NCBI GenBank assembly: GCA_030068145.1
Contig: JAPJBO010000114.1
Location: 1 to 64,000, forward strand
DNA: 64,000 bases
Reading direction: 5' to 3'
Origin: Diplonema papillatum
Taxonomy: Eukaryota > Euglenozoa > Diplonemea > Diplonemida > Diplonemidae
Every line of letters begins with the position of its first letter. The stretch's first letter is position 1. The notes under the pieces are model-generated. The model searched no databases, was not told where the DNA came from, and saw only the letters and a program-made list of their open reading frames with translations. Shown here one piece after another: positions 1,319 through 14,002 of the stretch. The position numbers and the translations under genes were made by a program.

Positions 1319-4300
1319 GTGCTCCCCTCTATCTCTTGCAATCAGGCTTGGCAACACAGGACCCCGCGCAGAATGGGAAGCAAAAGGATGAGTGGTGGGA
1401 GTCCTGTGTGTCTAGGGGCTTGTCTCTCACTCAAGGCTTTTTGTTGGCTGGCTTGCTGGTGCTGACTTGCTGGTGCTGACTTCCTGGTGCTGACTTGCTG
1501 GGTGCTGGCCTGGGTGTCTCCTGGTACTGCGCTGCCTGCTATGTGCTTCCTGCTGGTGCTGCCTGCGTGTGCTGCCTGCTGTTGGTGCTGTCTGCCGTTG
1601 GTGCTGCCTGCTGCTGGTGCTGGCTGGTGTGTGCCTCCTGCTGGTGCTGCCTGGTGCTCATAATATTTTTTCCAAAACTTGAAAATTCGAAAAATATACC
1701 CAAGTATCAAAGTCCCCGTGCCAAAGATTGTTGCTATGTGTGTGCTTTGTCTGTCTCTAATCTGCCCAAAACTTCCACCGATTAGGGATCATCAGAACTA
1801 TGAACACGCAGACCTCGAAAGGTTTGCTTCCTCCTGTTTCGTTTCCACTGCGGTTAGCCACATACAATGTCGTGAGACAAAGTTTTTTCGGCCAGTTGCG
1901 AGGAACTGCCTGCAGGAGTTGCTCAAAGCATGAACGTCAAGGACGCTCAACAAAGCCTATGGAGGGGCTCGCATCTGATCCAAAATGCTGGCATAGTGAC
2001 ACGGGTTGATCTTGCTGACTGGCTCGACAGGTACTCCCGCGTTGCAAAGTGCAGCTTCCTTTCAACCCTTCAAAGATAGGACAAAGCACGCACACAAGAG
2101 ACAACCAATAGCCATTTTCCCCTCCCATCCTTCCTCCCAAGGTTTTGGGTTCCTGGTTTGGTTCTGCTGATGCTGTGATTGTTACTTCTGCTAAAGCTGT
2201 GCTGCTTCTGCTGCTACTTCTGCTGCTGCTGCTGCTGCTGCTTCTGCTGCTTCTGCTGCTTCTGCTGCTTCTGCTCTGCTCCTGCTCCCTGCTGGTGCTT
2301 CAGTCTTGCTGATGTTGCTGCTGCTGCAAAAAAGGTGAATGAGTGAAAATCCCATGTGCTGACAACGGTGGCTACCTGTTTTTGGGCCAAAAGGGGCCTG
2401 CCATGCCAGAACTGGGACATCTTTTTATTTCTTTACAATAAGAAGAAAAGTGTGGACAAAAGGCTTAAAGCAACCTTCTCTTGACTTCGATGGGGTTTTT
2501 GCTGCCTTGCTGCTGATCCTCTTGCTGCTCCTCTTGTTCCTGTGTTTGGTTTTGCTGCCTTGCCACTCTTGCTCCTGCTGCTGTTGCTGATTTCCCTGAA
2601 GCTGCGACAATCCCGCCAACAACACAGTAACTGTTTACTTCCTGCTGATTTGCTGCTCACTGCTGTTTGTGCTGCTGGGCTTCTCTTGTTGCCTTTCATC
2701 GAAGCTGTGAAACTCTCTCAAAACCAAACACTGCAGTAAACGACCTTCCCCCCCTTCGAAATGGAAAGGCTTGCATTTTTCATCGAAGCCCAGATTCGCA
2801 AACTTCGTCTGTGTTTTGATTACCTGTTTAGGTTTCTTTGAACTGAAAGTTGCTGTCTGCCTTGCTGCTGCCTTGCTCCTGCTCTTGCTGCTGTTCTTGC
2901 TGCTACTCTTGCTCCTGCTGCTCCTGCTGCCTTTCTCCGAAGCTGTGGAATTCTCGGAAAACCAAACACTGCAGTCAACGACCTTCCCCACTTCGAAATG
3001 GAAAGGCTTGCAAAGACTGATGTTCATTGCAAGCTTCGATTTCCACCTTAAGCGCTTCAAACAAACTTCGTCTGTGTTTTGATTTTCTGTTTATGTTTCT
3101 TTAAATTGAAAGCTCCTATTCTGTCTGCTGCCTTCTGTTGGTGCTCTTCCTGCTGCTGCCTTACCGCTGCTCCCTTGCCGCTGCTGCCTTGCTGCTGCTG
3201 CCTTGCTGCTGCTGCCTTGCTTGCCCCTGCTGCCTTGCTGCTGCTGCCTTGCCGCTGTTGCCTTGCCGCTCCTGTCTTCTTGCTGCTGCTGCCTTGCTGA
3301 TGCTGCCTTGCTACTGCTGCTTTGCTTTGCTGCTGTCTTGCTTCTGCCGCTGCCTTGCCGCTGCTGTCTTGCTGCTGCTGTCTTGCTGCTGCTACTCTTG
3401 CTGTTGCTGCTCCTGCTGCTCTGCTGCCTTTCTCCAAAGCTGTGGAATTCTCGCAAAACCAAACACTGTGGTCAACGACCTTCCCCACTTCGAAATGGAA
3501 AGGCTTGCAAAGACTGATGTTCATCGCAAGCTTCGTTTTCCAACTTAAGCGCTTCAAACAAACTTCGTCTGTTGTTGCTGCTGCTGCCTTGCCGCTGCTA
3601 TGATGCTGCTGCTGCTGCCGCTGCCGCTGCCTTGCCGCTGCTGCCTTGCTGCTACTGCCTTGTTGCTGCTCCTGCCTTGCTGCAGCTGCTGCTGCTGCTG
3701 CCTTGTTGCTGCTGCCTTGGCGCTGCTGTGTTGCTGCTCCTGCTTCCCTGCCGCTGCTGCCTTGCTGCTGCTGCTGCCTCTTGCTGCTGCTGCTGCCTTG
3801 TTGCTGCTGCTGCTGCTGCTGCTGCTGCCTTGTTGCTGCTGCCGTGCCGCTGCTGTGTTGCTGCTCCTGCTTCCCTGCCGCTGCTGCCTTGCTGCTGCAG
3901 TCTTGCTTCTGCTGCTGCCTTGCTGCTCCTGCTGCCTTGCAGCTGCTGCCTTGCCGCGGCTGCCTTGCTGCTGCTGCTGCCTTGCTGCTGCTGCCTTACC
4001 GCGGCTGCCTTGCTGATGCCGCCTTGCCGCTGCTATCGAACTGCTGCCGCCTTGCCGCTGTTGCCTTGCCGATGCTGTCTTGCTGCCGGTGTCTTGCCGC
4101 TGCTGTCTTGCTTCTGCTGCTGCCTTGCCGCCGCTGCCTTGTTGCTGCTGTCTTGCTTCTGCTCCTGCCTTGCTGCTGCTGCCTTGCCGCGGCTGCCTTG
4201 CTGCTACTGCTGCCTTGCCGTTGCTGCCTTGCTGCTGCTGCCTTGCTGCTGCTGCCTTGCTGCTCCTGCTGCCTTGCTGCTGATGCCTTACCGCGGCTGC

Positions 4301-6570
4301 CTTGTTGCTGCCTTGCGGATGCCGCCTTGCCGCTGCTATCGTGCTGCTGCTGCCTTGCCGCTGCTGCCTTGTTGCTGGTGGCTTGCTTCTGCTGCTGCCT
4401 TGCTGGTGCTGCCTTGCCGCGGCTGCCTTGCTGCTGCTGCTACCTTGCTGCTGCTGCTGCCTTGCTGATGCCGCCTTGCCGCTGCCATCGCGATGCTGCC
4501 GCCTTGCCGCTGTGCCGCTGCTATCGTGCTGCTGCTGCCTTGCCGCTGCTGCCTTGTTGCTGGTGGCTTGCTTCTGCTGCTGCCTTGCTGGTGCTGCCTT
4601 GCTGCGGCTGCCTTGCTGCTGCTGCTGCCTTGCTGCTGCTGCTGCCTTGCTGATGCCGCCTTGCTGCTGCCATCGCGATGCTGCCGCCTTGCTGCTGTGC
4701 AGCTGCTGCCTTGCTGCTGCTGCCTTGCTGCTGCCTTGCTGCTGCTGCCTTGCTGTGGCTGCCTTGCTGCGGCTGCCTTGCTGTGGCTGCCTTGCTGCTG
4801 CTGCTGCCTTGCTGCTGCTGCTGCCTTGCTGATGCCGCCTTGCCGCTGCCATCGCGATGCTGCCGCCTTGCCGCTGTGCAGCTGCTGCCTTGCTGCTGCT
4901 GCCTTGCTGCTGCCTTGCTGCTGCTGCCTTGCTGCGGCTGCCTTACTGCGGCTGCCTTGCTGTGGCTGCCTTGCTGCGGCTGCTGCCTTGCTGCTGCTGC
5001 CTTGCCGCGGCTGCCTTCCGGATGCCGCCTTGCCGCTGCTGTCGTGCTGCTGCTGCCTTGCCGCTGTTGCCTTGCCGCAGCTGCCTTACTGCTCGTGTCT
5101 TCCCGCAGCTGTCTTGCTTCTGCTGCTGCCTTGCTGCTGCTGCCTTGCTGTGGCTGCCTTGCTGCTGCTGCTGCCTTGCTGCTGCTGCTGCCTTGCTGAT
5201 GCCGCCTTGCCGCTGCCATCGCGATGCTGCCGCCTTGCCGCTGTGCAGCTGCTGCCTTGCTGCTGCTGCCTTGCTGCTGCCTTGCTGCTGCTGCCTTGCT
5301 GCGGCTGCCTTACTGCGGCTGCCTTGCTGTGGCTGCCTTGCTGCGGCTGCTGCCTTGCTGCTGCTGCCTTGCCGCGGCTGCCTTCCGGATGCCGCCTTGC
5401 CGCTGCTGTCGTGCTGCTGCTGCCTTGCCGCTGTTGCCTTGCCGCAGCTGCCTTACTGCTCGTGTCTTCCCGCAGCTGTCTTGCTTCTGCTGCTGCCTTG
5501 CTGCTGCTGCCTTGCTGTGGCTGCCTTGCTGCTGCTGCTGCCTTGCTGCTGCTGCTGCCTTGCTGATGCCGCCTTGCCGCTGCCATCGCGATGCTGCCGC
5601 CTTGCCGCTGTGCAGCTGCTGCCTTGCTGCTGCTGCCTTGCTGCTGCCTTGCTGCTGCTGCCTTGCTGCGGCTGCCTTACTGCGGCTGCCTTGCTGTGGC
5701 TGCCTTGCTGCGGCTGCTGCCTTGCTGCTGCTGCCTTGCCGCGGCTGCCTTCCGGATGCCGCCTTGCCGCTGCTGTCGTGCTGCTGCTGCCTTGCCGCTG
5801 TTGCCTTGCCGCAGCTGCCTTACTGCTCGTGTCTTCCCGCAGCTGTCTTGCTTCTGCTGCTGCCTTGCTGCTGCTGCCTTGCGGGGCTGCCTTGCTGCTG
5901 CTGCTGCTTTCTTGCCGACCTTTTTTACGCCTGGGAAGGGTAGGTGCGCAGCTCGGAGGCCAGATACGAAGTTAGGGGCTTTCACCCACAGCAAAGGAAC
6001 TGCTTGCCTTGGCCGCGTTTCGAAAAACACGTTTCCAGGGGACACCGCGAGGAGGTGGCAAGTCAGATTTTGTCCCCCAACCCCAAGACCACCCAGGGGC
6101 CTTTGATGGCCAGCTTCTTGGACTTCACGACCTCTCAGGACCACTTTGCTGAAGGAACACCGAAAACGTGATAGGCAACTGTTGCATGTCGAAATGGGGA
6201 GGGCACGTTCTCCCGAAGTTGCGACCGAAAGAACGTCGTTCGTAGGAGCTTCGAATTCCTGTGACGGTTTCGTTGGATGCATCGGTCAAAATATCAACAA
6301 AATATGCACCCATAGCTCTGACAGAACCTTTTTGCTGACTCGGAACTTCACATACCTTGACTGCTTGCACACGAACTCTCGAACACCAGATTTTTCAAGC
6401 ACAACTCCGACCCGAACCATCTTGTGAATTTCTTTTCTTCTTCTAGTTCCTGTTTGCGTTGTGTGTGCTGATCCCTGTTTTCTTTCGAGTCGGCCTCTTC
6501 ACACAAGAGGCCGAACCTGGACAAGAAGGCCCACATCAAAGCGCTGAGAACCCATCAAATGCACGAGGGG
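1319..6570. repeat. Large tandem duplication, copy A
   Basis: This block and 6884-9640 share the same ordered landmarks at high identity: a lead sequence CTCTATCTCTTGCAATCAGG; TGCTGGTGCTGAC repeats; a stretch ending GACACGGGTTGATC; a CTG-rich region; TTTTTTACGCCTGGGAAG; and an end near CCATCAAATGCACGAGGGG. Copy A is about twice as long, mainly because of the CTG array at 3127-5925. The many open frames come from low-complexity triplets and I do not support any as a gene. Confidence 0.8.
3127..5925. repeat. CTG/CTTGC-rich array with 367-bp higher-order period
   Basis: The array is built of CTTGCTGCTGCTGC-like units (mostly 12-15 bp). Above that is a longer period: CATCGCGATGCTGCCGCC occurs at 4850, 5217 and 5584, exactly 367 bp apart, and earlier at 4486 and 4671 (185 and 179 bp apart). 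Stops are rare in several frames on both strands, giving Leu/Ala/Cys-rich frames on + and Ala/Arg/Gln/Ser-rich frames on -. There is no conserved domain, so I read it as satellite-like DNA. Confidence 0.85.
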
Positions 6571-6883: not shown

Positions 6884-9640
6884 GTGCCCCCCTCTATCTC
6901 TTCCAATCAGGCTTGGCAACACAGGACCCCAAAGAACGCGCAGAATGGGAAGCAAAAGGATGAGTGGTGGGAGTCCTGTGTGTCTAGGGGCTTGTCTCTC
7001 ACTCAAGGCTTTTTGTTGGCTGGCTTGCTGGCTGCTGACTTGCTGGTGCTGCCTTGCTGGTGCTGACTTGCTGGTGCTGACTTGCTGGTGCTGACTTGCT
7101 GGTGCTGACTTGCTGGTGCTGACTTGCTGGTGCTGACTTGCTGGTGCTGACTTGCTGGGTGCTGGCCTGGGTGGGTGTCTGCTGGTACTGCGCTGCCTGC
7201 TATGTGCTTCCTGCTGGTGCCTGCGTGTGCTGCCTGCCGTTGGTGCTGCCTGCCGTTGGTGCTGCCTGCTGCTGGTGTGTGCCTCCTGCTGGTGCTGCCT
7301 GGTGCTCATAATATTTTTTTCCAAAACTTGAAAATTCGAAAAATATACCCAAGTATCACAGTCCCCGTGCCAAAGATTGTTGCTATGCGTGTGCTTTGTC
7401 TGTCTCTAATCTGCCCAAAACTTCCACCGATTAGGGATCATCAGAACTATGAACACGCAGACCTCGAAAGGTTTGCTTCCTCCTGTTTTGTTTCCACTGC
7501 GGTTAGCCACATACAATGTCGTGAGACAAAGTTTTTTCGGCCAGTTGCGAGGAACTGCCTGCAGGAGTTGCTCAAAGCATGAACGTCAAGGACGCTCAAC
7601 AAAGCCTATGGAGGGGCTCGCATCTGATCCAAAATGCTGGCATAGTGACACGGGTTGATCTTGCTGACTGGCTCGACAGGTACTCCCGCGTTGCAAAGTG
7701 CAGCTTCCTTTCAACCCTTCAAAGATAGGACAAAGCACGCACACAAGAGACAACCAATAGCCATTTTCCCCTCCCCCATCCTTCCTCCCAATGTTTTGGG
7801 TTCCTGGTTTGGTTCTGCTGATGCTGTGCTGCTTCTGCTGCTACTTCTGCTGCTGCTGCTTCTGCTGCTGCTGCTGCTGCTGCTTCTGCTCCTTCTCCCC
7901 CTGCTGGTGCTTCAGTCTTGCTGATGTTTCTGCTGCTACAAAAAAAAATGCGAATGAGTGGAAACCCCATGTGCTGACAACGGTGGCTACCTGTTCTTTG
8001 GGCCAAAAGGGGCCTGCCATGCCAGCACTGGGACATCTTTTCATTTCTTTACATTCATTTCTTTAAAATAAGAAGAAAAGTGTGGACAAAAGGCTTAAAG
8101 CAACCTTCTCTTGACTTCGATGGGGTTTTTGCTGCCTTGCTGCTGCTCATCTAGCTGCTCCTGTTGTTCCTGTGTTTGGTGCTGGTGCTGCTCTTGCTCC
8201 TGCTTCTCTTGTTGCCTTTCATCGAAGCTGTGAAACTCTCTCAAAACCAAACGCTGCAGTAAACGACCCTCCCCCTTCGAAATGGAAAGGCTTGCATTTT
8301 TCATCGAAGCCCCGATTCGCAAACTTCGTCTGTGTTTTAATTTCCTGTTTAGGTTTCTTTGAAACGAAAGTTGCTGTCTGCCTTGCTGCTGCCTTGCTCC
8401 TCCTCTTGCTGCTCTTCTTGCTGCTACTCTTGCTCCTGCTGCTCTGCTGCCTTTCTCCGAAGCTGTGGAATTCTCGCAAAACCAAACACTGCAGTCAAGG
8501 ACCTTCGCTTGCAAAGACTGCTTTCATTGCAAGCTCCGATTTCCTTCTTAAGCGCTTCAAACAAACTTCGTCTGTGTTTTGATTTTCTGTTTATGTTTAT
8601 TTGAATTCAAAGCTCCTATCCTGTCTGCTGCCTTCTGTTGGTGCTCTTCCTCCTGCTGATTAACCGCTGCTGTCTTGCTCTGGCTGCCTTGCTGCTGCTG
8701 CCTTGCCGCTGCTGCCTTGCTGCTGCTGCCTTGCTGCTGCTGCCTTGCTGCTGCTGCCTTGCTGCTGCTGCCTTGCCGCTGCTGCCTTGCTGCTGCTGCC
8801 TTGCTGCTGCTGCCTTGCTGCTGCTGCTGCTGCCGCTGCTGCTTGCTGCTGCTGCCTTGCCGCTGCTGTCTTGCTGCTGCTTGCTGCTGCATTGCCGTTG
8901 CTGCCTTGCCGCGGCTGCCTTGCCGTGGCTGCCTTGCTGCTGCTGCCTTGCTGCTGCTGCCTTGCTGCTGCTGCTGCTTTCTTGCCGACCTTTTTTACGC
9001 CTGGGAAGAGTAGGTGCACAGCTCGGAGGCCAGATACGAAGTTAGGGGCTTTCACCCACAGCAAAGGAACTGCTTGCCTTGGCCGCGTTTCGAAAAACAC
9101 GTTTCCAGGGGACACCGCGAGGAGGTGGCAAGTCAGATTTTGTCCCCCAACCCCAAGACCACCCATTGAGAATTCCGGGGCCTTTGATGGCCAGCTTCTT
9201 GGACTTCACGACCTCTCAGGAGCACTTTGCTGAAGGAACACCGAAAACGTGATAGGCAACTGTTGCATGTCGAAATGGGGGGGCACGTTCTCCCGAAGTT
9301 GCGACCCTTGAAAGAACGTCGTTCGTAGGAGCTTCGAATTCCTGTGACGGTTTCGTTGGATGCATCGGTCAAAATATCAACAAAAATATGTACCCATAGC
9401 TCTGTCAGAACCTTTTCGCTGACTCGGAACTTCACATACCTTGACTGCTTCCACACCAGATTTTTCAAGCACAACTCCGACCCGAACCATCTTGTGAATT
9501 TCTTTTCTTCTTCTAGTTCCTGTTTGCGTTGTGTGTGCTGAATCCTGTTTTCTTTCGAGTCGGCCTCTTCACACAAGAGGCCGAACCTGGACAAGAAGGC
9601 CCACATCGAAGCACTAAGAATCCATCAAATGCACGAGGGG
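6884..9640. repeat. Large tandem duplication, copy B
   Basis: Second copy of the block described for 1319-6570, same orientation. TGCTGGTGCTGACT repeats are expanded at its start (7035-7155). The CTG-rich region is reduced to about 8620-8985. The flanks either side of that array match copy A closely, so the length difference is inside the array. Confidence 0.8.
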
Positions 9641-9743
9641 GCCCGCAGGGCCACCGAGTGCGGGTTTGCGGGGTTTGCGGGGACAGAGTCACCTCCCACA
9701 AGGCAATTCCTTACCCCAGCCTGAGCAAGAGCGCCCAATTGTG

Positions 9744-10160
9744 AGCCAGCTTTTCTGGAGGGACTGGTCTTTAGAAGGGGTGACATTTCTGAAGGAACCT
9801 GGCCTTTCGAAGCCTTGATGTGAGCCAACGTTTCTGCAGGGAGTGGCCTTTAGAAGCCTTGATGTGGGCCAACGTTTCTGCAGGGAGTGGCCTTTAGAAG
9901 CCTTGATGTGGGCCAACGTTTCTGCAGAGAGTGGCCTTTAGAAGCCTTGATGTGGGCCAAGTTTTCTGAAGGGACAGGCCTTTAGAAGCCGACTTTTCTG
10001 AAGGAACTGGCCTAGAAGCCTTGATGTGGGGTGACTTTGCTGAAGGGACTGGCCTTTAGAAGCCTTGATGGGAGCCAACGTTTCTGCAGGGAGTGGCCTT
10101 TAGAAGCCGTGATGTGGGTCAACATTTCTCAAGGGACTGGCCATTAGAAGCCTTGTCCCA
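9744..10160 (+). repeat. 44-bp tandem repeat
   Basis: About nine units run from 9744. The block AGCCTTGATGTG recurs at 9811, 9855, 9899 and 9943, an exact 44-bp period; other units are truncated or diverged. Each unit includes CCAACGTTTCTGCAGGGAGT. It is non-coding. Confidence 0.8.
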
Positions 10161-11056
10161 CAGGGAACCCAGAAACACTCAGAAACTCCCGAAAGGTTTG
10201 ACACATGTCAGTGTTGGTTACTTAAACGCCCGAAAGTCGTGTGGTGGGGATAAAGACCCCATAAAGGTAGGTGTGTGGTCACAGAAGGCCACCAAAGGAC
10301 CACGATCCCAGAGGTTCCCAGATGAGCCCATAATTGCAAACCCACAATCACAATGAATCTTTTGCTTGGGTGAGCTGGGGTGGGTGGGGGCTGTGAGAGA
10401 GCAGAAGTCGGGTGACTGGGCAACTCCTTTCTTGAGAGAATGTTTAAATGTGAAGAAAGTAGATGAGAGCGAACTGAAGGTACAGTTTCCAGAATGAGTG
10501 TTGTGTACTTCCCCATCCTGACTCAACATGAACATTTTAAGCTGACGATCAGAGCGGAACTGCAAGGACGTTGCACAGGTGACAGTGAAATAGGTGAACT
10601 TCACTTTTCAGCTGGACAGTCGAGGGGGGACCAGGAGTGTTTCACTGGTGACCCCAAGTTGGCGCAGCAACTGTCATTTTGCTCGAAGGTCTAACGTCAC
10701 GAAGAAGTATCTCTATCTGTGCCACTGAGCAATGTGTTTCTTGCACATCTCGTTGCAATGATGGTTTGCTCAAGTAAAATCTGTAACGGGCCGCCCCTGT
10801 ATTGGTCAGTTTTGGTCCAGTTTTGTCCAATTCTGGTGTGATTCTGGTCGAATTAGTTGCAGCTTCGGTTGTTCCGCATAGTTTCGATCTGCACGGCAGC
10901 ACAGTTTCCAGGATGTGAACTTCGCTTGTCAGATTGCTTGAGAATAGATGTTGCTTTCTGACGAAAAATGCCAAAGACGTTGATGGGGAACGTGCAGAGG
11001 GAAAAGCTTATTTGTCAAGAAGTTATCAGGGCGACAGGTTGTTGTCCTGTACGAAC
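10161..11056. other. No gene seen; 3' flank of the peroxiredoxin-like gene
   Basis: Nothing coding was recognised. This is where a 3' UTR and SECIS element of the minus-strand peroxiredoxin-like gene should lie. Reading the minus strand from 11056 to about 10440, I found no hairpin with a convincing ATGA...AA...GA core. The nearest candidates, ATGA at about 10677 and GTGA at about 10700, do not form a good stem by eye. Confidence 0.4.
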
Positions 11057-11686
11057 TCATTTGGAAGGTCCATCATCATTTTCGGGGGTGGCCCCACAAC
11101 AGCCGCAACAGCAACAGAAAAGTTGCAGGACGTTCATGGTTCTCACACGCGATGGTGCAATAGTCCCAGGTCGACCCTTCTGCAGATGGTGCCTAACCTG
11201 GTTCCATGTGTCGATGAAGTCGATGCGCTTTGAGCTACCGCCCAATGTCCAGATACTCGGCACTACACTCCATGCGAACAAGACCTCGCCGCCCCGTCTC
11301 ATGAACACGACCCCTGGCTGTACACAGCCATGCGGGTAGTAGCTTCGGCGACCAATTTTCGGGTGTATTGGCTGATCCTCCGGCATTATGATGGCAAGCC
11401 CAGGCAGTGCCTCTGTCTGCATCTTCTTAGCTACAAGATTCTCGGGGTCTCCGAGCATTTGCACCTCAGCGGGATTGATCTTCCAGCTCTGTGCTGTTTT
11501 ATCGACAATGCTTTGCGACTCTGAACACACACCGAAGGTGGTTACACCAGCTCGTTTCATCTGGTCTGACACTTTGTTCACACCTTGATAAAAGGTGTGA
11601 CACCCAGGTCACCAGCCCCCACGGTAGAACGTTATGCAGACAATGTCCGCATTGTTAAGAGCCTCCTGCACTCGAGACAGTGCCAT
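11057..11686 (-). CDS. Peroxiredoxin-like protein with in-frame TGA at the catalytic Cys (putative selenoprotein)
   Basis: The visible frame reads ATG at 11686 to TGA at 11057-11059, 209 residues if the internal TGA (11609-11611) is decoded. Around it the protein reads CITFYRGGW-U-PGCHTFYQG. Peroxiredoxin-like AhpC/TSA relatives have FYRGxWCPxC at this point, so TGA falls exactly on the first active-site Cys, giving UxxC. After it the fold continues: a GVCSES strand/turn, a LGDPENLVAKK segment, a QPGVVFMRRGGEVLFAW beta-hairpin and a C-terminal helix. The frame shows no other break, which argues against a pseudogene. The final Cys-rich tail (CCCCGCC) is odd. A good donor-like GTGAGA lies just before it, after APSR, so the true C-terminus may be in another exon. 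CTCAG shortly before the ATG could be an acceptor, so the 5' end is also open. Likely a thiol/selenol oxidoreductase. Confidence 0.7.
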
Positions 11687-14002
11687 GGAATCTGAGTTTT
11701 CGCTTTGACTGCTTTTGTAGATTGCGAGAAGCAAGAATGGGTGTTTTATTTTCGATCCTGTTGGGTTGTTGGCTGAATGTCCATGCACGGTTTTGTTTGA
11801 AGTTGATTAAAAGTTTCTTCTGGTGCTCTATTCCCGGTTTTTGCCAGCTCTCTGTCAACTCTTTCTCATGCTCGTGGTGTGTTCTTGAGAGCTTTGAGGT
11901 CTCCGAAAGCCGCAGATTTAAGCTGTGTTTGGACTGCTGCCTGCCTGCGATGACCTCCGGGATGCCACCTACAGTGTCGGCAGTCTCAGTGCTGTCCCCT
12001 ATTTTCTTTTCCAAACCCGGTTTTAGGTCTAAACCGGCCATTGAATTGTCTAAGCGAAATCCTGCTTTGCACAGGTTGGCTGTGTTGGAGCTTGTGTTTC
12101 CGCTACTATCAGCACTTGTCTGGGTTGCCTTTGATCTAGCGGTTGTCGACCACACGCTTCCCCTTTTTGACTGTTAACAAATGTTTCTTTTTCGTTTCCG
12201 TGTTTTCGTTTTCGTGCAGAAGAAGAATTGTTGATCTGCGCGCCTGCCGATGTACTTTGCTTCGTTTCTGCCTTTTCCGGGTGGAAGCACAGCAACAGTT
12301 GCAACCGACAACGAAAGCACGGAAAAAGTGACCCTTCTGGAATCACATAGCGAAAAGCTGGCATAGTTCGGTACTCATTTGCTTTGTACAGCTGTAAGAG
12401 GCATACGAAAAAGGGAACTTGGAGTCTCATATCACTTTCTTCCTTCAGACTTTCTCGTCTCGGTAGGTCGTGCTGGTTTGAACCTCTTGTTGTGGGTTGA
12501 TTTGTTCTCTGGAAGTAGTGACGGTCTGGTTTTGGGCACTGATTGCAATTGCAGCTTTGTTGTTAGTATCTTTGTTATAAGGATCTTTGTTGTGGTAACT
12601 GTCTGTGAGATTTTCGGTGTTTTGTAGCCTTAACTGCATCGTGGTTTGTGGGGCACTTCATTATGGTGGTGATGTTGAAATCGTCCGCTGTACTTCTGGC
12701 CTGTTAGCAGTTATCGCTCGAAAGAAAAGAACCATTTACTTTTTGAGGGATAGAACGGCAACCAGCAGGTGGGGTTGATGGCAAGTAACTCCAAAAAAGC
12801 AAAAGACAAGTTGGGGAATGAGGAGGGTGGTGGCAGAGATATTCGTACAAAAGAAAAAGAAGAAGAAAAGAGGCATGTGCTGGTTCTCTTCTTTGGAACA
12901 GAGCAAACTTCTCGTTGGGCCAGCGAGGGTGTCTCCCTCAGCAAAGCTTGACCCTGCCTCGAGAGTTTGACAACGAGTGAGTGTTGTCTGAGGCCGACAG
13001 CTAACCGAAACCTCACTCCCTTGGGAGCACTTCCATAAATTAAAAGCTGGCGAGAACCGGCAAAAACGCCTATAAAATTCAGAAAGGAAACTGAAAACAC
13101 AAAAAGAAAACTGCAAGTGTGCACTAGGGGAGACACAAAAGAAGAGGAAACCAAAGGAAAAATGCATAAGAACAGAGAGAGAAAGAGCTCGGAAAAGAAA
13201 TTGGACAAGGTTTCGGCTTTAGGGAGACCGGGGCACACGAGCAAGGACAGAAATAGAAAAAGAAGGCAAGTGCTGTTTTCAAGTCTGCAGAAACAGGCTG
13301 CCACCTACTTAGACATACGGGTTGCCTGGCTCAACAGGCAGGAAGCACTTCGAACCTGAATAAAGTAGCATCCCCATTTGGCACAACAAATGCCCCAAAC
13401 TAAGCCTGCCTTTCAACAACACTGTCACAGGTTGCGGCGGGACAGCACATCTTTGAAAAAACTGTTGTGCTACCACCGAAGCAACGACTACTAGTGGTTT
13501 GGACTTGATTCACCAATCTGTGACAATAGACTGCACAAGTCATCACCGACTGTTATGGGAATAGTGGTAATCTACCAATCATCAAGCTCCGAAAGAGCAG
13601 AACACTTCTAATTCTGATGCCCCTACTCGGATCAATGCCTTGCGCTTACGTGTAACGGTCAACCAAAGGACACGCCACAAGGCAGTGATAAGCTGGTATG
13701 ACATTAAGATCAGTGCAAGGGCTATCACGGAAAGAGCCGCTCGTCGCAAGGTGGAGGGGAAAGCCAATGGCACATAAAGGAGGGAGAATGGTGTGGGTGG
13801 ATGTGGGGCCTTGATTTCTCCTAAGATTCATCGGCAGAGTAAACATGGTTGCAATATTTTTTTTTAGTTGGGCTCGATTGGATCTGTGAACCGAAGCTTT
13901 TTTAGCGTTTATTGTGGTTTAGAGGTTCGGTGTGTTAGGGTCTCCGGTTGACCATTGAGGCTGTGAGGCGGGTGGTATGAGGGTAGTAGGTATGCTTATA
14001 TT
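11687..14002. other. No supported gene
   Basis: There are several open frames (for example minus strand 11655-12155 and 12711-13304), but their composition follows local purine or pyrimidine bias and no family was recognised. The 5' exon(s) of the peroxiredoxin-like gene could lie at the left edge. Confidence 0.4.

Follow-up and report, generated by a model that had tools for sequence, protein, structure and literature searches.

The window, a 64-kb stretch that forms part of a 372-kb contig in a 271-Mb genome, carries on its minus strand a reading frame predicted to code for a peroxiredoxin-like (Prx-like) selenoprotein. The features of this locus are the following:

11057..11686, minus strand: predicted Prx-like (AhpC/TSA, thioredoxin-fold) selenoprotein ORF, from the ATG at 11686 to the terminal TGA at 11059-11057, 209 residues with Sec26
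11609..11611, minus strand: in-frame TGA, the proposed Sec codon, at the first position of UxxC (U26-P-G-C29)
11171..11671, minus strand: segment in common with the bacterial Sec clade, spanning residues 6-172 of the window protein and containing the motifs GDP, YPHGxxQPGV, and GGxxxR
11578..11600, minus strand: perfect 9-bp hairpin TCACACCTT-TTATC-AAGGTGTGA, a candidate recoding aid (SRE-like)
11025..11060, minus strand: weak SECIS-like candidate with an ATGA...AA...TGAT core that overlaps the terminal stop, the best-looking core only
11692..11720, minus strand: possible spliced-leader acceptor region, picked by eye, with AG sites just upstream of the ATG and a pyrimidine tract farther up

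Translation of 11686-11057 yields 209 codons and a stop, with one internal TGA at codon 26 (11611-11609) surrounded by the residues FYRGGW-U-PGCH. This confirms the preliminary description of a minus-strand frame that reads YRGGW-U-PGC and is open on both sides of a single TGA, and homology is found on either side of that codon. The reading frame is also open upstream of the ATG, the whole open frame spanning 249 aa with one TGA inside. Since the ATG lies in the context CCATGGC and the structural model of the protein starts with a helix and a strand, an upstream exon is probably unneeded and the gene probably consists of a single exon; moreover, when 11.5-20 kb was compared with the N-terminal part of the bacterial family that is missing here, only the gene's own frame matched. 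The Prx-like protein has one match in the 271-Mb genome, namely its own locus, and terminates in a Cys-rich tail (CCCCGCC) that could, as a guess, be lipidated.

The host lineage and the surroundings of the gene

The other genes of the window are eukaryotic and include an Arf-family GTPase, UBE2J2, and an RNA polymerase subunit, which makes bacterial contamination an unlikely origin of the Prx-like frame. The UBE2J2 frame has a 99% match to a EukProt protein over 88% of its length, and the next best matches include the transcripts labelled Sspe and Rhum, which we take to be those of the diplonemids Sulcionema and Rhynchopus. The spliced leader known as 'Euglenozoa 14' is presumably that of Diplonema. 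With up to three mismatches allowed, the spliced-leader 22-mer CTACAGTTTCTGTACTTTATTG has 398 + 359 matches in the genome, compared with 0 + 1 for the reversed control, and it sits inside AACCAACGATTTAAAAGCTACAGTTTCTGTACTTTATTG at two loci, in full at one of them (L017) and with the first two bases different at the other (L018). A published spliced-leader table lists AACCAACGATTTAAAAGCTACAGTTTCTGTACTTTATTG as 'Euglenozoa 14' (PMC3795323), and the genome of Diplonema papillatum has been published as about 280 Mb in size (PMC10161547). The host is a euglenozoan, almost certainly the marine flagellate D. papillatum or a species very close to it; the spliced leader and the UBE2J2 match identify a diplonemid and not one of the algae, in which such selenoproteins are common according to the preliminary description.

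Some further elements of the genome and of the window were recorded along the way. The two leader-bearing loci, L017 and L018, carry different sequences after the leader around 1486-1522, as though copies of mRNAs with the leader had been reinserted into the genome, in which the 22-mer has 757 dispersed matches. Within the window, the regions at about 3000-6000 and 8600-9000 are made of long CTG/CAG-type arrays with several frames open on both strands, and their Gln/Ala-rich or Leu/Cys-rich ORFs look non-coding. Near these arrays, two HDV-ribozyme-like copies lie 3 kb apart on the minus strand (6000-6078 and 9070-9148) with identical scores, both below the Rfam cut-offs (RF02682, 32.6 bits with a cut-off of 44; RF01787, 28.9 bits with a cut-off of 37), and the copy at 9072-9148 reached E 0.0014 in a narrower scan.

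An AhpC/TSA protein and its bacterial relatives

The Prx-like protein matches the Pfam family AhpC-TSA (PF00578) at E 1.3e-9, with 38.5 bits against a gathering cut-off of 26, and AhpC-TSA_2 is absent from its six Pfam matches. Taken alone, the 183 codons that follow the TGA still match AhpC-TSA (E 9e-4, profile positions 39-118) and give no match at E <= 5 with a profile of 24 Cys homologs; the part that precedes the TGA gives weak matches of its own (E 0.003 and 0.022), and no Pfam match was found for these 25 codons. When the window protein was used as the sole query against 5.8 billion proteins, including the EukProt sets, none of the 50 candidates reached E <= 0.001 and no homolog was retrieved. 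Weak matches to genes of the 'peroxiredoxin-like family' were obtained by tblastn against plasmids (best E 7e-4), and five of them seeded a profile search that returned 7,989 matches. From the 120 listed among these, 24 homologs were chosen and aligned, the named ones being bacterial and many of them labelled 'peroxiredoxin-like family'. In this alignment, the TGA column is Cys in all 24 homologs, and W25, P27, and C29 are invariant as well.

The AlphaFold2 model of the protein has a thioredoxin-like fold (mean pLDDT 68, pTM 0.67) that opens with helix 2-12 and strand 15-21, and its best Foldseek matches are peroxiredoxin Q (PrxQ) and AhpC. Alignment and model together place the UxxC between the first strand and the active-site helix. 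In a weak ungapped alignment with an AhpC (E 0.23), U26 stands opposite the Ser of SxxC and C29 opposite the Cys, and the protein has FYRGGWUPGC in place of the canonical peroxiredoxin motif PxxxTxxC/U. This weak alignment suggests that Sec would occupy the first position of a thioredoxin-like CxxC and not the position of the peroxidatic Cys of true peroxiredoxins, and the protein is therefore not to be called a canonical peroxiredoxin. The preliminary description had presented the gene as peroxiredoxin-like with TGA at the catalytic Cys: the family assignment is borne out by the AhpC/TSA match and by the Cys column, and the term 'catalytic Cys' applies, on the weak AhpC alignment, only in the thioredoxin sense.

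Relatives that carry TGA at the same codon are found in prokaryotes. The pattern TTYTAYMGNGGNNNNTGGTGACCNNNNTGY, which spells FYRGxW-TGA-CPxxC and, by demanding TGA, under-samples the Cys relatives, occurs in at least 120 stretches of prokaryotic species genomes, compared with a chance expectation of about two according to a hand estimate from base frequencies. In 113 of the 120 listed stretches, the open frame extends over 30 codons or more before the TGA and over 60 or more after it, and the other 7 are cut by the end of the locus. For nine of the 120 listed, the alignment to the window protein covers 151-191 residues, with 60-85 bits and 25-28% identity; these nine come from Myxococcota, Deltaproteobacteria, Gammaproteobacteria (including Pseudomonadales), and Acidimicrobiia, and share with it the stretches SEPQ/SESQ, GDP, YPxG..QPGV-like, LxxW, and GGAxxR-like. 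In the window protein and all eight of the relatives that were aligned (L113 of the nine was left out), 27 columns are identical. A profile of the nine scores the window protein at 87.6 bits over residues 6-172, and the two Cys-form profiles, built from 24 and 5 sequences, score it at 35.3 and 39.3 bits over residues 6-90. Relatives with Cys and relatives with TGA at this site, which the preliminary description had named as a check, thus both exist: the former are the 24 of 24 aligned homologs, the latter the at least 120 prokaryotic stretches, nine of them in the clade of the window protein.

This clade was delimited with trees of 119 of the 120 listed TGA sequences (the masked L065 was left out) and the 24 Cys forms, to which a further Cys form, L156, was added later. 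The group of the window protein and the nine TGA forms has a support of 0.998 (FastTree, 144 sequences), and the clade enlarged by L156 has a support of 0.998 (FastTree, 145 sequences) and of 99.9/100 (IQ-TREE, 25 sequences); the readable part of L065 looks like a tenth member. Inside the clade the order varies with the method, FastTree pairing the window protein with L156 (0.909) and IQ-TREE grouping it with the nine TGA forms (80.8/91), and its immediate ancestor may have carried either Sec or Cys. A search with a profile that did not demand TGA, made from the window protein and eight of the nine relatives, found 10 matches across the nine source genomes; each has a single TGA, and the tenth comes from a second gene in the genome G005. 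A profile search of 369 gammaproteobacterial genomes at E <= 1e-20 gave two matches, in the source genome of the relative L080 and in the genome of L156, a short Cys form inside the clade and the single new genome to emerge from profile searching without the demand for TGA. A tRNA-Sec above the cut-off is present in 7 of the 9 TGA-form genomes, in 0 of 1 Cys-form genome, and in 5 of 14 control genomes. L156, a Cys form in a genome with no tRNA-Sec over the cut-off, offers a natural Sec/Cys pair for comparison.

The distribution of TGA among the relatives also bears on the quality of the sequence. Codon 26 was read in the assembled contig, and an assembly or base-calling error that turned a true TGC or TGT into TGA would account for the interruption of the frame; such an error would need to fall by chance on codon 26, the very codon that is TGA in the bacterial relatives, and is very improbable.

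Probable selenocysteine decoding and its candidate signals

The genome contains two tRNA-Sec(TCA) genes that score 76.4 and 70.2 bits against an Rfam cut-off of 47, and eight further matches lie below this cut-off. It also contains a SelW gene, MSNGPVQLQIQYCGG-TGA-GYGRF, with CGG-TGA-G at the Sec site and a frame that ends in TAG, and a SelT exon, KYCVS-TGA-GHKKLF, with TGA at the Sec site. Judged by its tRNA-Sec genes and by the TGA in SelW and SelT, this is a genome that decodes Sec. The best MsrA match in the genome has Cys at the corresponding site (GCFW), and the second and third SELENOF matches are weak (E 0.08 and 0.38). Eight of the nine MsrA and SelF matches are without an internal stop, and in the ninth a TGA and a TAA occur among the first 15 codons, ahead of the conserved part; TGA therefore does not look like a general sense codon.

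The same observations weigh against the idea that UGA is decoded in the Prx-like gene as Cys or Trp, by readthrough or by reassignment of the code. This idea has a precedent in some euglenozoans (Blastocrithidia), which are reported to read UGA as Trp (PMC12153298). It is at odds with the eight of nine MsrA/SelF matches that lack internal stops, the two stops of the ninth preceding the conserved part, and with the internal TGAs of the Prx-like gene, SelW, and SelT, which all fall on Sec/Cys sites, and it deserves hardly any credence.

As for the neighborhood of SelT and SelW, the sequence of the first SelT exon (MKRLLLLAAAAFAVACG...) recurs upstream of SelT at the locus L022, which is reminiscent of the partial 5' repeats that genes of D. 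papillatum are described to carry (PMC10161547). A fragment of eukaryotic LSU rRNA (277 bits, model positions 667-1453) lies near the SelT exon on the plus strand of L021, at 403-954, and a weak 5.8S rRNA-like match (24.2 bits, cut-off 42) lies downstream of SelW on the minus strand of L025, at 3695-3864.

A eukaryotic selenoprotein gene is expected to carry a 3' SECIS, and the limit stated in the preliminary description, that none is convincing after the stop, stands. Rfam SECIS models gave no match in the whole 64-kb window or, with lax filters, over 9000-11700, and our own pattern-plus-fold scans downstream of the gene gave no canonical element and nothing that beat the shuffles where these were run (three scans). 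The SECIS-like core at 11060-11025 scored 21.2, compared with 16.9-30.7 for 15 shuffle maxima; it is poorly paired beside the quartet, and the fold of the region retains only its apical 5-bp stem. The same methods gave nothing convincing behind SelW, which served as a positive control, and the 3' end of SelT, behind long introns, was not found, so that SelT was dropped as a SECIS control. The 3' UTRs of D. papillatum are reported to have a median of about 800 bp and to reach several kb (PMC10161547). Because the SelW control failed too and the 3' UTRs of this species are long, the absence of a recognized SECIS carries little weight against Sec.

It is nonetheless one of the points that fit a unitary pseudogene or a dead transferred gene, in which the TGA would be a plain stop, arisen by nonsense mutation or inherited as an undecoded bacterial Sec codon, recently enough for the frame to have stayed open. 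The single match in the genome, the lack of an ortholog among 5.8 billion proteins, and the existence of a Cys form in the same clade (L156) are also compatible with such a fate. On the other hand, the lone lesion would sit on the codon at which nine bacterial members of the clade have TGA, a random nonsense substitution on codon 26 represents 1 of 77 single-step routes to a stop, and Sec is decoded elsewhere in the genome; in addition, 27 columns are kept in all the aligned sequences at an identity of about 25% to the relatives, a divergence that may in part predate a recent transfer. A dead gene is improbable on this evidence.

The best reading is that UGA codon 26 is read as Sec and that the gene codes for a bacterial-type Prx-like selenoprotein, and we regard it as very probable. 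The TGA relatives in the same clade, the tRNA-Sec genes, and the TGA in SelW and SelT all support the earlier proposal that this TGA encodes Sec. The product would belong to the bacterial 'peroxiredoxin-like' kind, as a small oxidoreductase with a thioredoxin fold and the redox motif U-P-G-C, and in its mRNA the tRNA-Sec of the cell would read UGA codon 26 as selenocysteine, with the help of a 3' SECIS that may be present and have escaped recognition. By analogy with thioredoxin-like UxxC enzymes, the selenol of U26 would attack an oxidized substrate and Cys29 would then close a selenenylsulfide. The gene or its ancestor probably came from bacteria, where the clade has both Sec and Cys forms; Sec may have been brought along with the gene or gained later.

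A local signal may take part in decoding. The hairpin at 11600-11578 begins at the 9th nt after the UGA, and nt 18-22 make up its loop. In eight of the nine bacterial relatives, folding gives a stem of 6 bp or more whose apical loop, AGTTG or AGTTA, occupies nt 17-21, one nt nearer to the UGA; the ninth, L114, has a similar sequence and folds with the loop GAGTT at nt 16-20. These post-UGA hairpins are presumably the bacterial SECIS of the relatives, and the hairpin of the window gene differs from them in sequence and nearly coincides with them in position. Bacterial SECIS have a G among the first two bases of the apical loop, and the loop of the window hairpin, UUAUC, has no G in these two bases and in this respect is not of the bacterial type.

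The energy of the hairpin was matched in 47 of 5000 synonymous draws, and nine Watson-Crick pairs arose at the hairpin position in 28 of 3000 synonymous permutations and anywhere in the ORF in 62 of 3000. With G-U pairs allowed, the corresponding counts were 116 of 2000 at the hairpin position and 1097 of 2000 anywhere. Of 195 stretches of this kind in the ORF, the six most stable do not include the 42 nt that follow the UGA; an 82-nt fold has a z of -2.0 and was equalled or exceeded in stability by 5 of 200 shuffles. The evidence for selection on the 9-bp hairpin is modest, because the controls that allow G-U pairs match it often, and the hairpin is possibly an SRE-like aid or a remnant. As a more far-reaching scenario, which we consider doubtful, a bacterial Sec gene entered the diplonemid with its UGA intact, and its SECIS hairpin was remodelled on the spot into a longer one with another sequence, which now aids or replaces the host 3' SECIS. 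If this were true, Sec would have survived a transfer between domains despite their differing insertion signals.

Relation to known selenoproteins

Diplonemids reportedly rank among the most abundant microeukaryotes of the sea (PMC10161547), and the gene provides a concrete case for studying how a eukaryote comes to decode a Sec gene of bacterial origin. The literature searched yielded no description of a diplonemid selenoprotein, and the main text of the paper on the Diplonema genome has no instance of 'seleno' (PMC10161547). Nothing similar to the Prx-like protein was found among the 5.8 billion proteins, although they include a 99% match to UBE2J2 of the window, which suggests that annotation skips such genes.

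Several known proteins are close to the predicted product. The canonical Sec and Cys peroxiredoxins (TxxU/TxxC) and AhpC_a (TGGUT) are alike in fold, PrxQ and AhpC being the best Foldseek matches, and differ in the redox motif, which is UxxC in the diplonemid protein. Among eukaryotes, the published description of AhpC_b of the diatom Thalassiosira oceanica is that of an AhpC_TSA selenoprotein with UxxC, prokaryotic homologs, a SECIS, and a proposed horizontal origin (PMC7539508). By this description, the diplonemid protein resembles AhpC_b as a eukaryotic UxxC AhpC_TSA protein with prokaryotic homologs; the two differ in their hosts, a diatom and a diplonemid, and in the SECIS, which AhpC_b has and which was not recognized behind the diplonemid gene.

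Among prokaryotes, Prx-like UxxC selenoproteins are represented by the Prx-like protein of the Sargasso Sea set (PMC1088965) and by Prx-like 1, pfam00578, of the GOS set (PMC2398784), and the reports on these marine metagenomes define them by UxxC, unlike the TxxU of Sec peroxiredoxins (PMC1088965, PMC2398784). The diplonemid protein is like them, as described there, in combining an AhpC-TSA domain with a thioredoxin-like UxxC. Compared with the nine bacterial TGA forms, it is without an N-terminal part of roughly 100 residues and without their C-terminal part, and ends in CCCCGCC; compared with the prokaryotic Prx-like proteins, it is encoded on a nuclear contig of a eukaryote. The kind of selenoprotein is thus a known one, as Prx-like UxxC in prokaryotes and as AhpC_b in one diatom, and its occurrence in the diplonemid lineage appears to be new.
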